In this document: piece after piece, positions 1,803 to 11,330 of the stretch
How positions within the stretch are numbered: position 1 is the first letter of the stretch
Layout of the letters: each line of letters opens with the position of its first letter
From: Pseudanabaena sp. CAN_BIN31
GTDB taxonomy: Bacteria > Cyanobacteriota > Cyanobacteriia > Pseudanabaenales > Pseudanabaenaceae
Direction: 5' to 3'
Assembly (NCBI GenBank): GCA_026785865.1
Contig: JAJAZG010000324.1
Coordinates: 1-33,986, forward strand
Length of the DNA stretch: 33,986 nucleotides
The notes under the pieces: generated by a model
What the model was told of the DNA's origin: nothing
The model's input: the letters and a program-made list of their open reading frames with translations, nothing else
Databases searched by the model: none
Program-made: the position numbers and the translations under genes

Positions 1803-1879
1803 CGATCGCATTTCACATCAACAAAATTGCGATCGCGAATCGACTACAGCAAACTTGAGAAGATAATTGTTGAGGCGAT
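1803..1879. repeat. Direct repeat copy 2 (~77 bp)
   Basis: cgatcgcatttcacatcaacaaaattgcgatcgcgaatcgactacagcaaacttgagaagataattgttgaggcgat; about 10 differences from copy 1 by eye. Confidence 0.9.
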
Positions 1880-1956
1880 TTCGTTTGACTAAGCGTTATA
1901 ATTTACGAGAATTTATATTTAACGCCGAAATAACAACGCAATCGATTGGAAACTGT

Positions 1957-3534
1957 ATGATGGCACTAACTTTTCACAAGTTATCAAGGTTCGGCAACGT
2001 TACAGAGCAGCCTCACAACAAGGGGTATCTACAACCCAACAATTGGGATGATTACGGTAATAAGACTTTATTTAGCCTCACTATCTTTGATGAGCAAGGT
2101 AATGAGCAGACTATCGGCAACATAAAAATAGGCTTTGTTGGTCAAGATAATGAATGGACTAATGAGCATATTCCAGATTCATTTGAGGTATTATCTGAAA
2201 TTTTTTATTCTCTTGGTCAGGATGCTGATTATTACCGAAATATAGTTGAAATCCTTTCTCACGAAATGGCTATTAATTTGCTAACCTCTCTCCGCGATGT
2301 AGTACATGATCCTAGTTGCCTGAAAATTGCTGAAAATGAAGATGCTTATAACGATTCTTTACTTAGGTCTGTAAACCGCACGTCTATTGAAAATCAGTTT
2401 AGAAGGATTTTACGCCATGAAGCCCCACTCACTAAATACAATTTCTTTTATGAGAAGGTTGCTGGTGGACGCTATTCTGGCATAAAAGTCAATTTTGCTG
2501 TTGAGCCAAATACCAAACCTTCTTCTAATATTCATGTATTAATTGGTCGTAATGGTGTGGGCAAAACAACCCTACTGAATAATATGGTAAATGCACTTCT
2601 TTCTAATCGGGGGGGAGTGCGAGAAACTGGCAATTTTGCTACCGTATCACCACTGGGTAGGACTGAGTCTCTCAATAATAATTATTTTGCTGGTGTTGTT
2701 TCTATCTCATTCAGTGCTTTTGATCCCTTTACTCCTCCAAATGATCAGCCTGAGGCTGATGTCGGAATGCGCTATTACTATGTAGGGCTACAAAAACGTC
2801 TTTCTGAACCAGACGGTCAGGCTGTTTTGGGACTGAAAGATAGAGATGATTTGTGCGGAGATTTCATCGCCAGCCTAAATATTTGCTTTGCATTAACAGC
2901 GAAGAAAACACGATGGATAAATGCGGTTAACACTTTAGGGTCAGATTTTAATTTTGCTGAAATGGATTTGTGCGAACTTACGAATATAAACAATCAAAAT
3001 GAACGTGATGAAAGAGCAACAGTACTTTTCAAAAAACGAATGAGTTCAGGTCATGCCATTGTCCTTTTAACCATTACAAAACTGGTTGAAACTATCGAAG
3101 AAAAAACTTTAGTCCTACTTGACGAGCCTGAAAGCCATCTTCATCCTCCATTATTATCGGCATTTACGCGAGCATTATCGGATTTGCTGGTTAATCGTAA
3201 CGCTGTAGCAATAATCGCTACGCACTCGCCAGTAGTGTTACAGGAAGTTCCTAAATCTTGCGTTTCGATACTCCGAAGAACTAGGCTTATTGCAAATGTT
3301 GATAGACCAGAAAGTGAGACATTTGCTGAGAATGTGGGTGTTTTAACGCGAGAAGTTTTTGGATTGGAAGTTTCCAAATCTGGATTTCATAGCTTACTGG
3401 AGAAATCTGTGGCTGAAGGCAAGAGCTACGAAGAAATAGAAGAAGAAGATTATCAGAATCAACTTGGGTTTGAAGGAAAAACTATTTTGCGATCGATGAT
3501 AATGATAAGAGATTCGCAATCGGGGGCTATCTAA
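1957..3534 (+). CDS. AAA (ABC-type/PtuA-like) ATPase; start at 1957 preferred over 1867
   Basis: Walker A IGRNGVGKTTLLNN, Walker B TLVLLDEPESHLHPPL, H-motif IIATHSPVVLQE. The residues encoded upstream of 1957 begin inside the tail of the direct repeat. Confidence 0.88.
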   Translation: MMALTFHKLSRFGNVTEQPHNKGYLQPNNWDDYGNKTLFSLTIFDEQGNEQTIGNIKIGFVGQDNEWTNEHIPDSFEVLSEIFYSLGQDADYYRNIVEILSHEMAINLLTSLRDVVHDPSCLKIAENEDAYNDSLLRSVNRTSIENQFRRILRHEAPLTKYNFFYEKVAGGRYSGIKVNFAVEPNTKPSSNIHVLIGRNGVGKTTLLNNMVNALLSNRGGVRETGNFATVSPLGRTESLNNNYFAGVVSISFSAFDPFTPPNDQPEADVGMRYYYVGLQKRLSEPDGQAVLGLKDRDDLCGDFIASLNICFALTAKKTRWINAVNTLGSDFNFAEMDLCELTNINNQNERDERATVLFKKRMSSGHAIVLLTITKLVETIEEKTLVLLDEPESHLHPPLLSAFTRALSDLLVNRNAVAIIATHSPVVLQEVPKSCVSILRRTRLIANVDRPESETFAENVGVLTREVFGLEVSKSGFHSLLEKSVAEGKSYEEIEEEDYQNQLGFEGKTILRSMIMIRDSQSGAI

Positions 3535-4400
3535 TGAGGGCTTTAGCTACACCAAATGATAGTCCAAAGACAGTATATGAAACATGTATAAATAGTATTG
3601 CAAATACAGATTTACGAGATCGCCTCAATCTGGTAACTCCTAATATTCTTGTTGCAGCAGGGGATTATGAGCAAAAAGCAAAGGCAAAACAGCTTTATTC
3701 CATTCCATCAAATAACTGCAAGAATCATGAAATCGCTTTAGGAGGCGTGACTAAAAAGGAACTCAAGGATGTTTATAGTTCACATATGGTAGATAGAGCA
3801 AAACCAGCAAGAGCGATCTATGACTTGTTGTTGTCTCAGGCTCCATTGGGACGATGTCCATTTTGTGGTTTTGGTCAGGTTTCCACATTGGATCATTATT
3901 TACCGAAAGCCAAATACCCACAGCTATCGGTTTTACCATTAAATCTCATACCTTCATGTAGGGATTGCAATACAGGTAAAAGTGATGCAATTGCGACTAC
4001 AGCAGAAGAGCAAAGTTTGCACCCCTATTTTGATCATCAGAATTTTATTGATGATCAATGGCTCTATGCAGAAGTAAGAAAAACAAAGCCAGCGACTATT
4101 TACTTTTTTGTTAAAGCTCCAGAGCAATGGGACAATATATCCAAAACACGAGTTCAGTCACACTTTAACGCCTTTAACTTGGCTTTACGATATTCATTAG
4201 AAGCTGGCAATGAGATGGTTTCCCTAAGAGATATATTAGTCAACTATAGTAAATCAATGGGTTCACATTCGGTAAAAAAACTATTAGAGATAGAAGCTAA
4301 ATCTTTTACTGGTCGGCATAGTAACTCTTGGGAAACAGCCATGTATCAGGCACTTGCATCGAGTGATTGGTATTGTGATGGTGATGGTGGCTTTCTGTAA
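3534..4400 (+). CDS. HNH endonuclease (PtuB-like), translationally coupled to the ATPase
   Basis: TAATG stop/start overlap; CPFCGFGQVSTLDHYLPKAKYPQLSVLPLNLIPSCRDCNTGKS. Confidence 0.88.
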   Translation: MRALATPNDSPKTVYETCINSIANTDLRDRLNLVTPNILVAAGDYEQKAKAKQLYSIPSNNCKNHEIALGGVTKKELKDVYSSHMVDRAKPARAIYDLLLSQAPLGRCPFCGFGQVSTLDHYLPKAKYPQLSVLPLNLIPSCRDCNTGKSDAIATTAEEQSLHPYFDHQNFIDDQWLYAEVRKTKPATIYFFVKAPEQWDNISKTRVQSHFNAFNLALRYSLEAGNEMVSLRDILVNYSKSMGSHSVKKLLEIEAKSFTGRHSNSWETAMYQALASSDWYCDGDGGFL

Positions 4401-4484: not shown

Positions 4485-4814
4485 ATGCTCAAAAAAGGTC
4501 GCAAAGTGAATCTCAATGAGTTGCCAGCAGGCGAGATAATCTTGATGGGATTAAGGGATCTTCATAATGGTGAGTCCAATACAATTGGAGCGTTGCTAGT
4601 AGCGATCGCATCCACGCGCTTAACTGAAGCAGGTTTAGACATTCCTAAAAACCATCTAGCACTAGAGCCAGAGCTAACCTTGTATGCCCGTCTCCAAGAT
4701 GAACGAGAAGATGCTTATGCTTACTATAATGCTTTGCTGAATAGCCTCAATAGTTTTTGCAATGCGATCGAACTCAGTTATAAATATGAACCGTCTAAGA
4801 AAATACGCTCATGA
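4485..4814 (+). CDS. Hypothetical protein upstream of the DUF1016 nuclease
   Basis: 109-aa ORF overlapping the next ORF by ATGA. Confidence 0.75.
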   Translation: MLKKGRKVNLNELPAGEIILMGLRDLHNGESNTIGALLVAIASTRLTEAGLDIPKNHLALEPELTLYARLQDEREDAYAYYNALLNSLNSFCNAIELSYKYEPSKKIRS

Positions 4815-5806
4815 CAGACTCTTTACAGCCACAATTTACTGAAGTTCTCATACTCATCAAAACCGCTCAACAAAAAGTTATTGCTACTGCAAATCAAGAA
4901 CTGATTAAGCTGTATTGGAGCATCGGTAAATATATTAGCGATCGCCTAGCTGCCAGCGAATGGGGGCAAAAGACAATTGAACAACTTGCATCCTTTATCC
5001 AAACCCAAGAACCTGCTATCAAAGGATTTGAAAAGCGCAACCTCGAAAGAATGCGACAATTTTACGAAACCTATCCCGATTCACAAATTACGACCGCACT
5101 GCGGACGCAATTGAGTTGGACGCACCATCGCATCATCATGTCACGCTGCAAGACCGAAGCCGAGCGTCTTTTCTACCTTGAACTTGCCGCCACCGAACGC
5201 TACAGCACCCGCGAACTCGATCGCCAAATAAATAGTGGCATTTTCGAGCGCACCCGTCTCGCCGATGCCAAGCTGTCACAAACTCTCCACCCTAAAACAC
5301 TTACAGGTATTTTTCGCGATACCTACGTCCTCGACTTTCTTAACTTACCTGCCAGCCATTCCGAGAATGACCTAAAAACAGCCCTTGTCTCCTATCTCAA
5401 GGAATTTATTCTGGAAATCGGTCGAGACTTCACTTTCCTTGGCGAAGAATATCGCCTTCAGGTTGGTAATAGTGACTTCTTTATCGATCTCCTGTTTTAC
5501 CATCGTGAACTCCAGAGTCTCGTTGCCTTTGAGCTAAAAATCGATAAATTTCGACCTGAATACCTCGGACAACTTGAATTCTATTTAGAAGCCCTCGATC
5601 GCGACCTCAAAAAAGCTCACGAAAACCCTAGTATTGGCGTTCTGCTTTGCCGTGACATAGACGATGAAGTTGTGGAATATGCTCTCAGTCGTTCTATCAG
5701 TCCTACAGTTGTTGCCGAATATGAAATCAAGCTTATTCCTAAGGAACTCCTGCGAAGAAAGCTGAATGAATTTTACGAATTAATCGCAATTAAAAATGAA
5801 ATATAA
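4811..5806 (+). CDS. PDDEXK nuclease domain-containing protein, DUF1016/YhcG family
   Basis: N-terminal YWSIGKYISDRLAASEWGQKTIEQLA plus C-terminal FFIDLLFYHRELQSLVAFELKIDKFRPEYLGQLEFYLEALDR, typical of YhcG/DUF1016. Confidence 0.92.
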   Translation: MTDSLQPQFTEVLILIKTAQQKVIATANQELIKLYWSIGKYISDRLAASEWGQKTIEQLASFIQTQEPAIKGFEKRNLERMRQFYETYPDSQITTALRTQLSWTHHRIIMSRCKTEAERLFYLELAATERYSTRELDRQINSGIFERTRLADAKLSQTLHPKTLTGIFRDTYVLDFLNLPASHSENDLKTALVSYLKEFILEIGRDFTFLGEEYRLQVGNSDFFIDLLFYHRELQSLVAFELKIDKFRPEYLGQLEFYLEALDRDLKKAHENPSIGVLLCRDIDDEVVEYALSRSISPTVVAEYEIKLIPKELLRRKLNEFYELIAIKNEI

Positions 5807-7430: not shown

Positions 7431-7472
7431 AAATAAGTGATGATGGACTGCGCGATGCATCATCACTTATTT
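7431..7472. terminator. Bidirectional terminator-like hairpin between convergent cobI and HNH gene
   Basis: Perfect 15-bp stem AAATAAGTGATGATG / CATCATCACTTATTT (7431-7445, 7458-7472); overlaps the HNH gene stop codon. Confidence 0.75.
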
Positions 7473-7920
7473 ATAGAGCTTTGCGCTGAAGTAATTGGAT
7501 TGGTCTAAATGCTCTCAGCGCATTGTAGGATTGTGGGTAACGCTTGAAAATATAGCGTTCGTATTCGTACCAATCCATTTCTGCTTTTTCTGTATTGCAA
7601 TCCCAACAAATTACCCATAGATTTTTAAATTCCATTGATAGCCAAGGATATTTAGCGCGTGGTAGTTTGTGGTCAATTGTTCTGCCGTTATCTTGGTGAT
7701 AGCGCGTATCACAAATTGGGCAATGTGAATCTGAATGGTCTTTCACCCAGTCTTTACTCTCTTGTGTAGTTCCAAAGGCAGAATTTCCATCAACATAACG
7801 CCAATTTTCGTATTGTTGGTAGTTGTCAAAATTCTTTTCAGTGAGTTTGTGATAGCGATTTTTACCAATCTTATCAACAAGATCAAATAGTTCTTTTAGT
7901 GTTTTGTTTTCAAGATCCAT
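7471..7920 (-). CDS. HNH endonuclease
   Basis: HCPICDTRYHQDNGRTIDHKLPRAKYPWLSMEFKNLWVICWDCNTEKA. Confidence 0.88.
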   Translation of the reverse strand: MDLENKTLKELFDLVDKIGKNRYHKLTEKNFDNYQQYENWRYVDGNSAFGTTQESKDWVKDHSDSHCPICDTRYHQDNGRTIDHKLPRAKYPWLSMEFKNLWVICWDCNTEKAEMDWYEYERYIFKRYPQSYNALRAFRPIQLLQRKAL

Positions 7921-7931
7921 ATTTCTATTTA

Positions 7932-8360
7932 CTAAAACTTTTTATTTCTAGGTTTGGTTTGATATTTGTGAACAGCTTTATTTCCAAAATCAATCACCTC
8001 ATCTTCTGTGTCAGGAAAAGCTTGATCAATCTGCTCGTTAATTCTATTATTTACCTCTGCTAACTTTTGATTGTTGTCCGCGATCTCTTCTGGCGTGAGG
8101 TATTTATTGCCAATGCGATCAGCTTCTAGAAATAGCTCTCCAAGGCTTAAATCATTCAAGTAATCTTGCTCTTGGATTAATTCTTCTATTTTTTGATAGA
8201 GAAGAATAACTTTATCCCAGCCAACATTTTTATAGCCTGATTTTTTTAGCCATTGTTGATCAGGCTTGGTGAGTAAGACTCGATTTTTTGAGTTAGCAAG
8301 TTGTACCTCACGATAACTCATGGATCTAAACGTTCTTTTTTTGTTTTTCTGTTCAGACAT
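7932..8360 (-). CDS. Hypothetical protein
   Basis: 142-aa ORF tightly spaced in the minus-strand cluster. Confidence 0.7.
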   Translation of the reverse strand: MSEQKNKKRTFRSMSYREVQLANSKNRVLLTKPDQQWLKKSGYKNVGWDKVILLYQKIEELIQEQDYLNDLSLGELFLEADRIGNKYLTPEEIADNNQKLAEVNNRINEQIDQAFPDTEDEVIDFGNKAVHKYQTKPRNKKF

Positions 8361-8372
8361 AAATTTATTTTG

Positions 8373-8840
8373 TTAACCTTGTATAGTTTTAAAAAGTTTA
8401 GATACTGCTTTACGAATTTCGCTGTCTTCATATCGCAAAAGCTTGTCACCTTCAATTGTAATTTTCAGTCTAATTGCATCAACCAAGTTTTTTAAATTTC
8501 TATTTTCCTTTTCAAGTTGATCTTTGACCTCAATTAACTGTTCATTGTCTTGTGAAAGTTTCGTGTTTTGCGAGTTTAAAATCTTAGTTTCATTATGCAA
8601 ATTCTTATTTTCTTCGACCTTGAGTGTGATCTCTTTGGTCTTCCTTGTCACCATCCCTTTTTGAGCAGCTTGAAGATTTTGACGATTAATTAGTTCCTTC
8701 CCAGCAAACAAAGAGCTATATTTATAAACAGTAAGCTCATCAGGATTTTGACTAAAATCAAGCCCTTTTAATGCTCTTTCTGCATCCGCTTTTGTCCACC
8801 CCTCGCGGACAAATAAATTTATTGCCTCTGTCTTTTTCAC
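8373..8840 (-). CDS. Coiled-coil hypothetical protein (GTG start)
   Basis: 155-aa ORF; central Lys/Glu/Asn-rich predicted coiled coil (EENKNLHNETKILNSQNTKLSQDNEQLIEVKDQLEKENRNLKNL). Confidence 0.7.
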   Translation of the reverse strand: MKKTEAINLFVREGWTKADAERALKGLDFSQNPDELTVYKYSSLFAGKELINRQNLQAAQKGMVTRKTKEITLKVEENKNLHNETKILNSQNTKLSQDNEQLIEVKDQLEKENRNLKNLVDAIRLKITIEGDKLLRYEDSEIRKAVSKLFKTIQG

Positions 8841-8874
8841 AAAAATTAATCTACCTTTCTTAAATATAGTAATC

Positions 8875-8916
8875 TTATTTGGCTTGTAATTTGACTTGTG
8901 AGTAGAGGCAATTCAT
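8875..8916 (-). CDS. Possible 13-aa leader ORF (MNCLYSQVKLQAK) with a consensus Shine-Dalgarno
   Basis: AGGAGGTGAT at 8928-8919 (minus strand) two nt upstream of ATG; stop TAA at 8877-8875. Confidence 0.35.
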   Translation of the reverse strand: MNCLYSQVKLQAK

Positions 8917-8936
8917 AAATCACCTCCTACTATTAA

Positions 8937-9824
8937 TTACCATTCGTTAATGATTTTTTGCATGGTCTTTTCGGCAAGTCCCTGAACATTGGCAATTATA
9001 TCTTTAGTTGATTCAAATTTTTGTCCTGATCGCTTTAATCTTTGTTCATGAATTGGTCGGGCAAATTTGCCGCTTTTTGATTGCAATAGCTTGCGCTCTA
9101 AATCAGCAAAGTTCATCGTATTCAAATCATTGAGAACTTGCAATGTCTTAGGATTATCCTCATCAACACCCTGTTTTTTAGAGGTAGTAGATCTCCCTAT
9201 TTTAGATTTATCTATTTTCTCCACTTTACTGGGTTTCTGAGGTTCTGGCTCTGGCGCGATAGGTGATACTGTCGGTTCAACAGATTTGTGAATAGTTGCA
9301 GGGGATAGTAATTGTTTGAAATCTAGTAGATGTGCGTCTAACTGCTGCGTCATTTGATCAATAATTGCTTGAAAACCAGAGCTTATTCGTTTCTCAATCG
9401 TACGTTCAATGGTGGCGGTAAGTTTCTGTTCTAAGCGAATAGAGATCGCCTGTTCTATGTGAGCTAAATCAAATTGTGGGATAGGCGGTGGTGTAATGCT
9501 TTCAACGATCGCAGGGACAGATAGCGATCGCAAAAATTGGTATTGTGCGAGAATAGTTGACTCTAAATTAGGTGGAACCACATAAGCCCGAATCGCCGTA
9601 AATTGATCGTCTATTTCTTGCGCTTTCATCGCTGCATAATATTCAAAATTCCCTTCCAAAATCTGAAATGAAATTGGTGAGATTTTGCGTAATAGAATTG
9701 GGCGAACTGTGTCGCCAGCTTGCAGAAATAAATTAGCAAGTTGCTCAATTTGACTTGGTTGGAATTGAGATAATTCTGGTGGTGTGATCGTATCAAGATC
9801 AATCGAAGATGTTAATAAACTCAT
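8937..9824 (-). CDS. ParB-like N-terminal domain protein (degenerate)
   Basis: VRPILLRKISPISFQILEGNFEYYAAMKAQEIDDQFTAIRAYVV resembles a ParB/Spo0J N-terminal domain; ATGA overlap with the ParA-like gene upstream. Confidence 0.65.
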   Translation of the reverse strand: MSLLTSSIDLDTITPPELSQFQPSQIEQLANLFLQAGDTVRPILLRKISPISFQILEGNFEYYAAMKAQEIDDQFTAIRAYVVPPNLESTILAQYQFLRSLSVPAIVESITPPPIPQFDLAHIEQAISIRLEQKLTATIERTIEKRISSGFQAIIDQMTQQLDAHLLDFKQLLSPATIHKSVEPTVSPIAPEPEPQKPSKVEKIDKSKIGRSTTSKKQGVDEDNPKTLQVLNDLNTMNFADLERKLLQSKSGKFARPIHEQRLKRSGQKFESTKDIIANVQGLAEKTMQKIINEW

Positions 9825-11218
9825 GAACGTAATCCTATTTTTTCAAGAATTTCATTAGCTAATTCTTCAAACTCGGCGGCTGACATCGAATCAGGCTTGA
9901 AGTCAAAGATTGACTTAGGATCGGGAATTTGCCGATCGCCTTCCATCACAAAATTATCGATCGCCCGTGACAAATCTTCGCGCTGAAAAATTCGAGTTTC
10001 TAATACTGGAAACCCATAACGATCTTGTACTACCTTCTCTTGTTTAGGTAGAGTTGCCTTAATGTAATTTGCATTAGTCAAGATTTTGGAAGGCAAAACT
10101 CCAAGAATATTGATCGGCGATCGGCTAATGAAACCACGAAATTCATCAATTTCTTCAATGAAATTTTTGACGTTGCGTAAACCCTCATTGGCAAAAGGCT
10201 TAAGGTCAGAGGGAATGATTAAATAATCACAGGCAATCAGCGCGATTTTGGCATATAGATTGAGGGATGGTGGCGTATCAATTAAAACCAGATCATAATT
10301 ATCTTTTACGAGTTCTAACTTCTTGACTAGCTGAAGTTTAGAACTTTCTTTGTCAATCAAGTTTGCTTCTTGCCAAATCAGATTGATATGAGCAGGAATA
10401 ACATCTACTTCAGGATAAGTAAAACTTCCTTTTAAAGCAATCTCAGGAATATAATTAGATTTGGGATAGAAGACGACATTATAGATATTGCTATCTTTGA
10501 GCGTGTCGTCTTCTTCGGTATCAAACTTCATTAGCCCTGCCGCATAGGTGGTATTTGCTTGACTATCGAGATCGATAATCAAAACCTTTAAACCCTTACG
10601 ACTCATTGCGGCAGCAAGATTAATTGTCGTTGTCGTTTTACCGACACCGCCTTTGTTGTGATAGATGGCGATCGTTTTCATGATTTTAGATGCTGGAGTT
10701 AGGAGCGATATACTTTTAGAAGCTGGATCGATGACATCAACCTGAATAGGAAGATTAATCAAAGGGATAGATTTATTTGTTTCAAGCCCCGCTAATTTAG
10801 CTCTGCCAATAATATCGCTAATTTTCTCGATTTTGTCAGTAATTTCTGAACCTTGACATTGAAAGGTCAGATCTAGGCGATCGCCCATCAGTTCATAAAT
10901 CCGAAAATCCTTGCCATTGGTCAAAACTCCATACATAACTTGCAGCTTGGTTAAATAACGAGTCAGCCGCCGCACATGAAAATTGAGATTTTGGTTAGGA
11001 TGTTTCGCCTCGATCACCACACAAGTTTTCGGTGCCGAATCTCTATTGCTCGAAAAAATTGGGCTAGTCAGGGCTAAGAAATCTAAACGAATGCTACCAA
11101 AGGCAACTTCTTGATGCCATTTGCTCGCGTCGTAACCAAGCGTAGGCAGGAGATACTGCACAATTAATTTACTTTCAACTTCGCTCTCATTACGGCAAAG
11201 CTTAGGATCGAATTTCAT
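9821..11218 (-). CDS. ParA-family ATPase with N-terminal HSDR_N-type PD-(D/E)XK nuclease domain
   Basis: N-term ESEVESKLIVQYLLPTLGY...IRLDFLAL...CVVIEAKHPNQ...YGVLTNGKDFRIYEL (HSDR_N); C-term IYHNKGGVGKTTTTINLAAAMSRKGLKVLIIDLDSQANTT and DLVLIDTPPSLN (ParA). Confidence 0.88.
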   Translation of the reverse strand: MKFDPKLCRNESEVESKLIVQYLLPTLGYDASKWHQEVAFGSIRLDFLALTSPIFSSNRDSAPKTCVVIEAKHPNQNLNFHVRRLTRYLTKLQVMYGVLTNGKDFRIYELMGDRLDLTFQCQGSEITDKIEKISDIIGRAKLAGLETNKSIPLINLPIQVDVIDPASKSISLLTPASKIMKTIAIYHNKGGVGKTTTTINLAAAMSRKGLKVLIIDLDSQANTTYAAGLMKFDTEEDDTLKDSNIYNVVFYPKSNYIPEIALKGSFTYPEVDVIPAHINLIWQEANLIDKESSKLQLVKKLELVKDNYDLVLIDTPPSLNLYAKIALIACDYLIIPSDLKPFANEGLRNVKNFIEEIDEFRGFISRSPINILGVLPSKILTNANYIKATLPKQEKVVQDRYGFPVLETRIFQREDLSRAIDNFVMEGDRQIPDPKSIFDFKPDSMSAAEFEELANEILEKIGLRS

Positions 11219-11274: not shown

Positions 11275-11330
11275 AAAAACAAAACATAAAAGGCTGTGGC
11301 GATCGCCGCAGCCTTTTATGTTTTGTTTTT
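11275..11330. terminator. Terminator hairpin at the coaX 3' end, with 22-bp arms
   Basis: AAAAACAAAACATAAAAGGCTG (11275-11296) ... CAGCCTTTTATGTTTTGTTTTT (11309-11330), inner HIP1-like palindrome GGCGATCGCC; contains the coaX stop codon. Confidence 0.8.

Follow-up and report, generated by a model that had tools for sequence, protein, structure and literature searches.

A Predicted Nuclease-ParA Fusion Protein and a Degenerate ParB-like Partner Encoded by a Cyanobacterial Gene Pair

The gene pair and its predicted proteins

Contig JAJAZG010000324.1 of the 3.5-Mb draft genome of the cyanobacterium Pseudanabaena sp. CAN_BIN31 was analyzed over its entire length of 33,986 bp (the window). Its minus strand carries two overlapping genes, the first of which (gene 1) is predicted to encode a nuclease fused to a ParA ATPase and the second (gene 2) a degenerate ParB-like protein. 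An earlier note, made from the DNA letters, had described a 465-residue open reading frame (ORF) at this position that joins an HSDR_N-like nuclease to ParA and overlaps a ParB-N-like gene through the sequence ATGA, a description that was borne out on both points. The two genes, the domains of gene 1, and the evidence for each are as follows.

9821..11218, minus strand: gene 1, predicted nuclease-ParA fusion of 465 amino acids (ORF, Pfam, AlphaFold, Foldseek, 40 homologs)
10802..11203, minus strand: predicted HsdR_N-type PD-(D/E)XK nuclease domain, gene 1 residues 6-139 (HSDR_N_2, invariant residues, predicted secondary structure, ratio of nonsynonymous to synonymous substitution rates (dN/dS))
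10682..10801, minus strand: predicted disordered, fast-evolving linker, gene 1 residues 140-179 (predicted local distance difference test (pLDDT), dN/dS)
9824..10681, minus strand: predicted ParA ATPase domain, gene 1 residues 180-465 (Pfam, conservation, Foldseek)
8937..9824, minus strand: gene 2, degenerate ParB-like partner of 295 amino acids (ORF, Pfam matches of relatives, profile and fold searches)

Inspection of gene 1 with Pfam revealed HSDR_N_2 at residues 17-110, with a score of 27.9 bits against a cut-off of 25, and AAA_31/ParA (PF13614) at residues 180-359, with E = 2e-53. HSDR_N_2 was also matched by 39 of the 40 gene 1 homologs, and the deviant Walker A motif of the ParA domain is intact (KGGVGKTTTT). 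The AlphaFold model, for which the 40 homologs served as input, had a mean pLDDT of 88 and fell below 50 at residues 152-175, consistent with a disordered linker. The predicted order of elements at the N terminus (helix 11-26; strands 34-40, 43-50, and 66-71; helix 78-92; strand 96-100) is that of the alpha-beta-beta-beta-alpha-beta core of PD-(D/E)XK nucleases, and the putative catalytic positions fall in helix 1 (E11), in strand 2 (D46), and at the end of strand 3 (E70-x-K72). Foldseek matched the C-terminal part to ParA and Soj with a template modeling score of 0.9 on the target, and McdA was among its structural neighbors. A Protein Data Bank (PDB) sequence search with the nuclease profile gave nothing meaningful, and because the fold search with the whole model returned ParA only and no nuclease, assignment of the nuclease fold rests on Pfam, the motif, and the predicted secondary structure. 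On this sequence evidence, gene 1 is a genuine fusion of an HsdR-type nuclease and a complete ParA ATPase, both of which look active.

Residues E11, D46, E70, K72, Y88, K189, and K194 do not vary among the 40 homologs, which span two clades, A and B, that are only ∼26% identical to one another; conservation of the first four, the nuclease residues, favors the interpretation given in the earlier note. Since the putative catalytic residues are invariant across this set, the fusion lies far beyond chance. The nucleases of the two clades aligned at 99.7% probability and their gene 2 partners at 95.6%. Both the Q and the Y of the QxxxY motif are invariant in clade B, and clade A keeps Y88. Within Pseudanabaena, the median dN/dS of gene 1 was 0.085 for the nuclease, 0.052 for ParA, and 0.53 for the linker; the nuclease domain is under strong purifying selection. 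The corresponding values for gene 2 were 0.12 for the ParB fold, 0.35 for the coiled coil, and 0.22 for the C terminus.

The gene 2 protein is predicted to comprise a ParB-CTPase fold (residues 1-100), a coiled coil of ∼54 residues (∼120-173), and a helical C-terminal domain (225-295). Gene 2 alone scored 15.1 bits against ParB_N (PF02195), which is under the Pfam cut-off; the family was matched by 36 of 38 gene 2 relatives, with a best E of 1e-10. A profile of the 38 homologs matched Noc and ParB structures, and Foldseek with the gene 2 model returned Noc, ParB, and PadC, followed by sulfiredoxin. The box II signature of ParB (GERRxR) is replaced by G-x-x-E-Y-x-A-A (G-x-x-E-Y-Y-A-A in clade A), so that canonical CTP binding is doubtful, and the only invariant residues are G58, A68, and Q94. 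Neither the central helix-turn-helix (HTH) nor the C-terminal dimerization domain of ParB was recognizable in gene 2, their place being taken by the coiled coil and a helix-hairpin-helix (HhH) or Rho_N/SAP-like domain. The C termini of gene 2 relatives, clade-B partners included, match either HHH_6/HHH_3 or Rho_N/SAP/HeH, which suggests interchangeable domains of a nucleic acid-binding type.

The best PDB match to the degenerate gene 2 family was a domain within a 1717-residue chain annotated as a "tail protein" (9k3a_B, residues 1335-1405), which matched the gene 2 profile with E = 5e-10 and has a similar box II variant.

Distribution, genomic setting, and history of the pair

The nuclease region is present, almost always once, in 27 of the 38 genomes of the order. 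Among 292 genomes sampled across the phylum, intact fusions number 35 in clade A and 14 in clade B, together 17%. A genome-wide scan gave 235 loci, and the best 80 of these are all cyanobacterial. Gene 1 is intact in 75 of the 80 and is accompanied in 71 by gene 2 at a distance of -69 to +34 bp; the remaining 4 loci end too soon for gene 2 to be visible, which brings the pairing to 71 of 71. Genes 1 and 2 are one two-gene system.

In most of the Pseudanabaena loci fetched, the pair adjoins the housekeeping gene coaX. It is chromosomal, single-copy, and largely vertically inherited in this genus and holds a fixed locus in most members. In several families, clades A and B share one locus, marked by two glycosyltransferase genes, a standalone parA, and a class I tRNA synthetase gene. 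The viral contigs searched held no relative of the nuclease, and the phages and plasmids searched held no fusion; the pair does not belong among the known plasmid partition modules. Matches to the nuclease domain on phages and plasmids were restriction-type proteins only, the nearest being N-6 DNA methylases of restriction type and HsdR-N proteins. No HsdR helicase motor, HsdM, or HsdS domain was found by Pfam in genes 1 and 2 or in the three genes that follow them in the window, and no recurring HsdR/HsdM/HsdS cluster was found among the representative neighbor clusters scanned.

Three kinds of candidate relative were set aside. A match on an Azospirillum plasmid that covered 89% of gene 1 was no fusion but an ordinary HTH-ParA with a canonical ParB after it. 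Two viral-contig matches to clade B were ParA proteins of 366 and 382 residues without a nuclease, and a standalone ParA of 294 residues that adjoins the pair in Nostocales belongs to a separate Soj-like clade.

A tree of the ParA domain, rooted at its midpoint only and with a narrow outgroup, placed clades A and B together and apart from standalone ParA (support 100/99). Nuclease-less clade-A proteins nest among the fused ones at several separate points of this tree, and about six losses of the nuclease with retention of ParA and gene 2 were counted (G017, G026, G160/G148, G048, G283, and a tandem copy in G056). The loss in G017 is a frameshift at the EAK motif, for which a sequencing error is possible, whereas that in G026 is an internal deletion that left the first codons and is not explicable by a single-base error. 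G030 was rejected as a further loss, the gene being cut by the contig end; in G117, too, a contig end is close by, and faulty sequencing may account for the broken frames of G050 and G321. With the exception of G017, whose open frame starts further upstream, the nuclease-less relatives start ParA at or near the equivalent of Met180, a position occupied by Met in 30 and by Val in 2 of 32 clade-A fusions.

Other changes affect the pair as a whole. In G011 both genes have been lost from the coaX locus, where a scar of gene 2 remains after coaX. Divergent versions lie at other loci in four Pseudanabaena, and because these copies group with other families, some transfer or old paralogy appears to exist. 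In G158 (L085:5774-8974, minus strand), a DUF559-like nuclease and a superfamily 1 (SF1) helicase precede the same ParA as two ORFs 10 bp apart, adjoining a degraded clade-B nuclease-ParA locus. This arrangement, seen in one genome with a broken reading frame, suggests that the DNA-processing module carried by ParA and gene 2 can vary. The tandem copy in G056 (L078:6330-8943, minus strand) is a nuclease-less ParA paralog directly upstream of the fused gene.

Neighboring genes and other features of the window

Downstream of gene 2, on the same strand, lie the coiled-coil, unknown, and HNH genes listed in the earlier note, and a palindrome is found on the other side of gene 1.

7471..8840, minus strand: three-gene module, separate from genes 1 and 2 (recurs elsewhere in cyanobacteria)
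8373-8840, minus strand: gene 3, coiled-coil protein with a GTG start (ORF)
7932-8360, minus strand: gene 4, uncharacterized protein (ORF)
7471-7920, minus strand: gene 5, HNH protein (PF01844, above the cut-off)
11275..11330, strand not applicable: near-perfect palindrome of 56 bp between coaX and gene 1, centered on HIP1 (GCGATCGC) (palindrome search)

The proposed five-gene unit did not survive comparison. Among the Pseudanabaena loci fetched, and in a search with gene 4, genes 3-5 adjoin genes 1 and 2 only in the window, G014, and G013. The HNH gene occurs in 10 other sampled genomes and is preceded by genes 3 and 4, in the same order, in 9 of them, so that at least nine other cyanobacteria hold genes 3-5 as a module of their own, possibly one of defense or mobility. 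Where these genomes have both modules, the two lie apart, for example by 0.76 Mb in G211 and by 1.3 Mb in G079. Because genes 1-2 and genes 3-5 occur unlinked, the five-gene layout is a juxtaposition of two modules. The HNH gene of the three-gene module was also seen on an Acaryochloris plasmid.

The palindrome is probably a bidirectional terminator. In several relatives coaX directly adjoins or overlaps gene 1, and the palindrome is therefore not a conserved centromere.

Elsewhere in the window, an AAA_21 ATPase of 555 residues and an adjoining HNH nuclease of 288 residues (1867-4400, plus strand) constitute a PDC-M01A/B pair (E = 2e-201 and 1e-113), which is close to Septu PtuA/PtuB. Just after this Septu-like pair lies a DUF1016/YhcG PD-(D/E)XK nuclease (4811-5806, plus strand), the candidate defense gene PDC-S02. 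Together they make up a small defense region upstream of cbiC/cobI.

Possible function and comparison with known systems

ParA proteins form ATP sandwich dimers that bind DNA non-specifically, and ParB-type partners stimulate their ATP hydrolysis. A PD-(D/E)XK monomer cuts one strand, and a dimer is needed for a double-strand cut. We tentatively favor a reading in which genes 1 and 2 are a ParA/ParB-like pair that positions and gates a nuclease, most plausibly for DNA surveillance or restriction rather than for segregation of the host chromosome. On binding ATP, ParA would dimerize on non-specific DNA and pair two nuclease domains on their long flexible tethers, which would license double-strand cutting. 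Gene 2, held on DNA by a C-terminal domain of HhH or Rho_N/SAP-like type and multimerized by its coiled coil, would bind ParA and stimulate ATP hydrolysis, thereby placing or releasing the nuclease, and a gradient of ParA may set where on DNA the nuclease can act. The target would be inappropriate DNA, whether incoming, replicating, or unprotected, handled by a system of the host chromosome. Dimer-gated cutting, the role of gene 2 as ATPase activator, and surveillance itself are steps that we infer. The suggestion of the earlier note that ParA positions or gates the nuclease thus survives as the best reading, helped by two active-looking domains and a degenerate ParB partner; the failure of the five genes to co-occur tells against the cluster that the note had described.

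It is rather unlikely that the pair serves instead in partition or nucleoid maintenance of the chromosome itself, with ParA and gene 2 positioning the copies in polyploid cells and the nuclease trimming or resolving DNA trapped or entangled at division. Such a role would fit the distribution of canonical ParB, which is missing from the single-contig genomes G014 and G029 and confined to small non-chromosomal contigs in G012 and G022, as well as the single copy of genes 1 and 2 on those finished Pseudanabaena chromosomes, the persistence of ParA and gene 2 after the nuclease has gone, and the position of the locus almost opposite dnaN in five near-complete Pseudanabaena. However, parABS loci on chromosomes usually sit close to the origin, and no origin linkage of the pair was found over 20 positions, at which the distance to dnaN, an imperfect proxy for cyanobacterial oriC, fits a uniform spread (Kolmogorov-Smirnov p = 0.29). 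Most sampled cyanobacteria, moreover, do without the pair, G011 having lost all of it bar the scar of gene 2, and no parS-like repeat cluster was found at the three loci examined. Candidates from the centromere search were discarded as two-copy chance repeats, HIP1 matches, or terminator-like palindromes.

A DNA repair or uptake accessory, in which the tethered nuclease would process damaged or incoming single strands while ParA spreads it over the nucleoid, is distinctly improbable: the HhH-type C terminus of gene 2 and the helicase-containing variant in G158 would suit it, but no repair or competence genes recur beside the pair in the neighbor clusters examined, and the nuclease is readily lost. 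ParA/ParB pairs are characteristic of plasmids, and the patchy occurrence across the phylum, with divergent copies at other loci in some Pseudanabaena, could point to a partition module of selfish or plasmid origin, now stranded on the chromosome, whose N-terminal domain is unrelated. We consider this very unlikely in view of the syntenic position beside coaX across most of the genus, the strong purifying selection on the nuclease, and the lack of any fusion on the plasmids, phages, and viral contigs searched. The selfish-element branch of the earlier note is likewise not supported, the locus being chromosomal, single-copy, fixed in most Pseudanabaena, and absent from those plasmids, phages, and viral contigs; its other branches, plasmid exclusion and phage defense, may yet apply. 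That all five genes act together, as might be implied by their shared strand and tight spacing in the window and in two further Pseudanabaena, is hardly credible, given that genes 1 and 2 are without genes 3-5 wherever else they occur and that genes 3-5 occur elsewhere without genes 1 and 2.

Restriction enzymes are costly and are often lost while their partners stay. Surveillance is favored over maintenance and over repair or uptake because the nuclease is conserved and yet has repeatedly been lost alone, as restriction enzymes are, and over segregation because the pair is not near dnaN, is patchy, and interchanges its alleles at one locus. By analogy, the clade A and clade B alleles at the same locus would be restriction-like behavior. 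The module exchange suggested by G158 and the restriction-type proteins that came nearest to the nuclease domain on plasmids and phages point the same way. Several observations weigh against surveillance or restriction. Vertical inheritance beside coaX is unusual for a defense gene, and no linked methylase or other recognizable mark of self and non-self was found at the pair. In the defense library PADLOC-DB, gene 1 was matched around Walker A only and gene 2 not at all. Clade A, unlike HsdR enzymes and clade B, has R, K, or H in place of the Q of QxxxY.

A more specific version of positioned cutting, to which we give little credence, would make the ParA gradient a sensor of self and non-self: gene 2 would mark the host nucleoid and keep the ParA-nuclease cycling off it, and the nuclease would linger, dimerize, and cut on DNA lacking gene 2 or lying outside the nucleoid. 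If true, this would be restriction by position and not by sequence or methylation. Bacteria use ParA ATPases as general machines for positioning cargo, and a nuclease must be controlled in where it cuts. With both active sites apparently intact and a degenerate ParB always paired with it, a single protein conserved across cyanobacteria would couple the positioning of DNA to its cleavage. Because finished Pseudanabaena chromosomes lack a canonical parB, the role of ParA-type systems on polyploid cyanobacterial chromosomes is directly testable by comparing D46/K72 with K194 point mutants.

Comparison with known systems places each part of the pair. With type I ParA/ParB (Soj/Spo0J), it shares a complete ParA with a deviant Walker A motif and an adjacent, translationally coupled partner of ParB fold. 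By contrast, gene 1 has a predicted N-terminal nuclease where type Ib ParA has nothing and type Ia an HTH, gene 2 is without the GERRxR CTP box and without recognizable HTH and dimerization domains of ParB, and, unlike for chromosomal ParABS, no parS was found at the three loci examined and no link to the origin was seen. The HsdR N-terminal nuclease (PF13588/PF04313) and N-6 DNA methylases with HsdR-N share with gene 1 a Pfam family, the E/D/ExK residues, and the Y of QxxxY, a motif that is complete in clade B. Gene 1 differs from the HsdR of type I restriction in having no helicase motor, methylase, or specificity subunit, with a ParA ATPase fused instead. McdA/McdB and other ParA/MinD cargo pairs likewise combine a ParA ATPase with an adjacent, non-canonical coiled-coil partner, whereas the apparent cargo of gene 1 is covalently attached and is a nuclease, and gene 2 has a ParB fold and a nucleic acid-binding type of C terminus.

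A 2025 PNAS survey of ParB-CTPase-fold fusions found only ParB-DUF3850 consistently beside parA (PMC12704722). The gene 2 family has degenerate ParB folds and swapped C-terminal domains in common with the surveyed fusions, and the gene 1-2 family was not found in the text of that survey (PMC12704722). A nuclease-ParA fusion was described in none of the literature searched, the coverage of which was partial. The parts of genes 1 and 2 belong to known families, whereas their combination does not.

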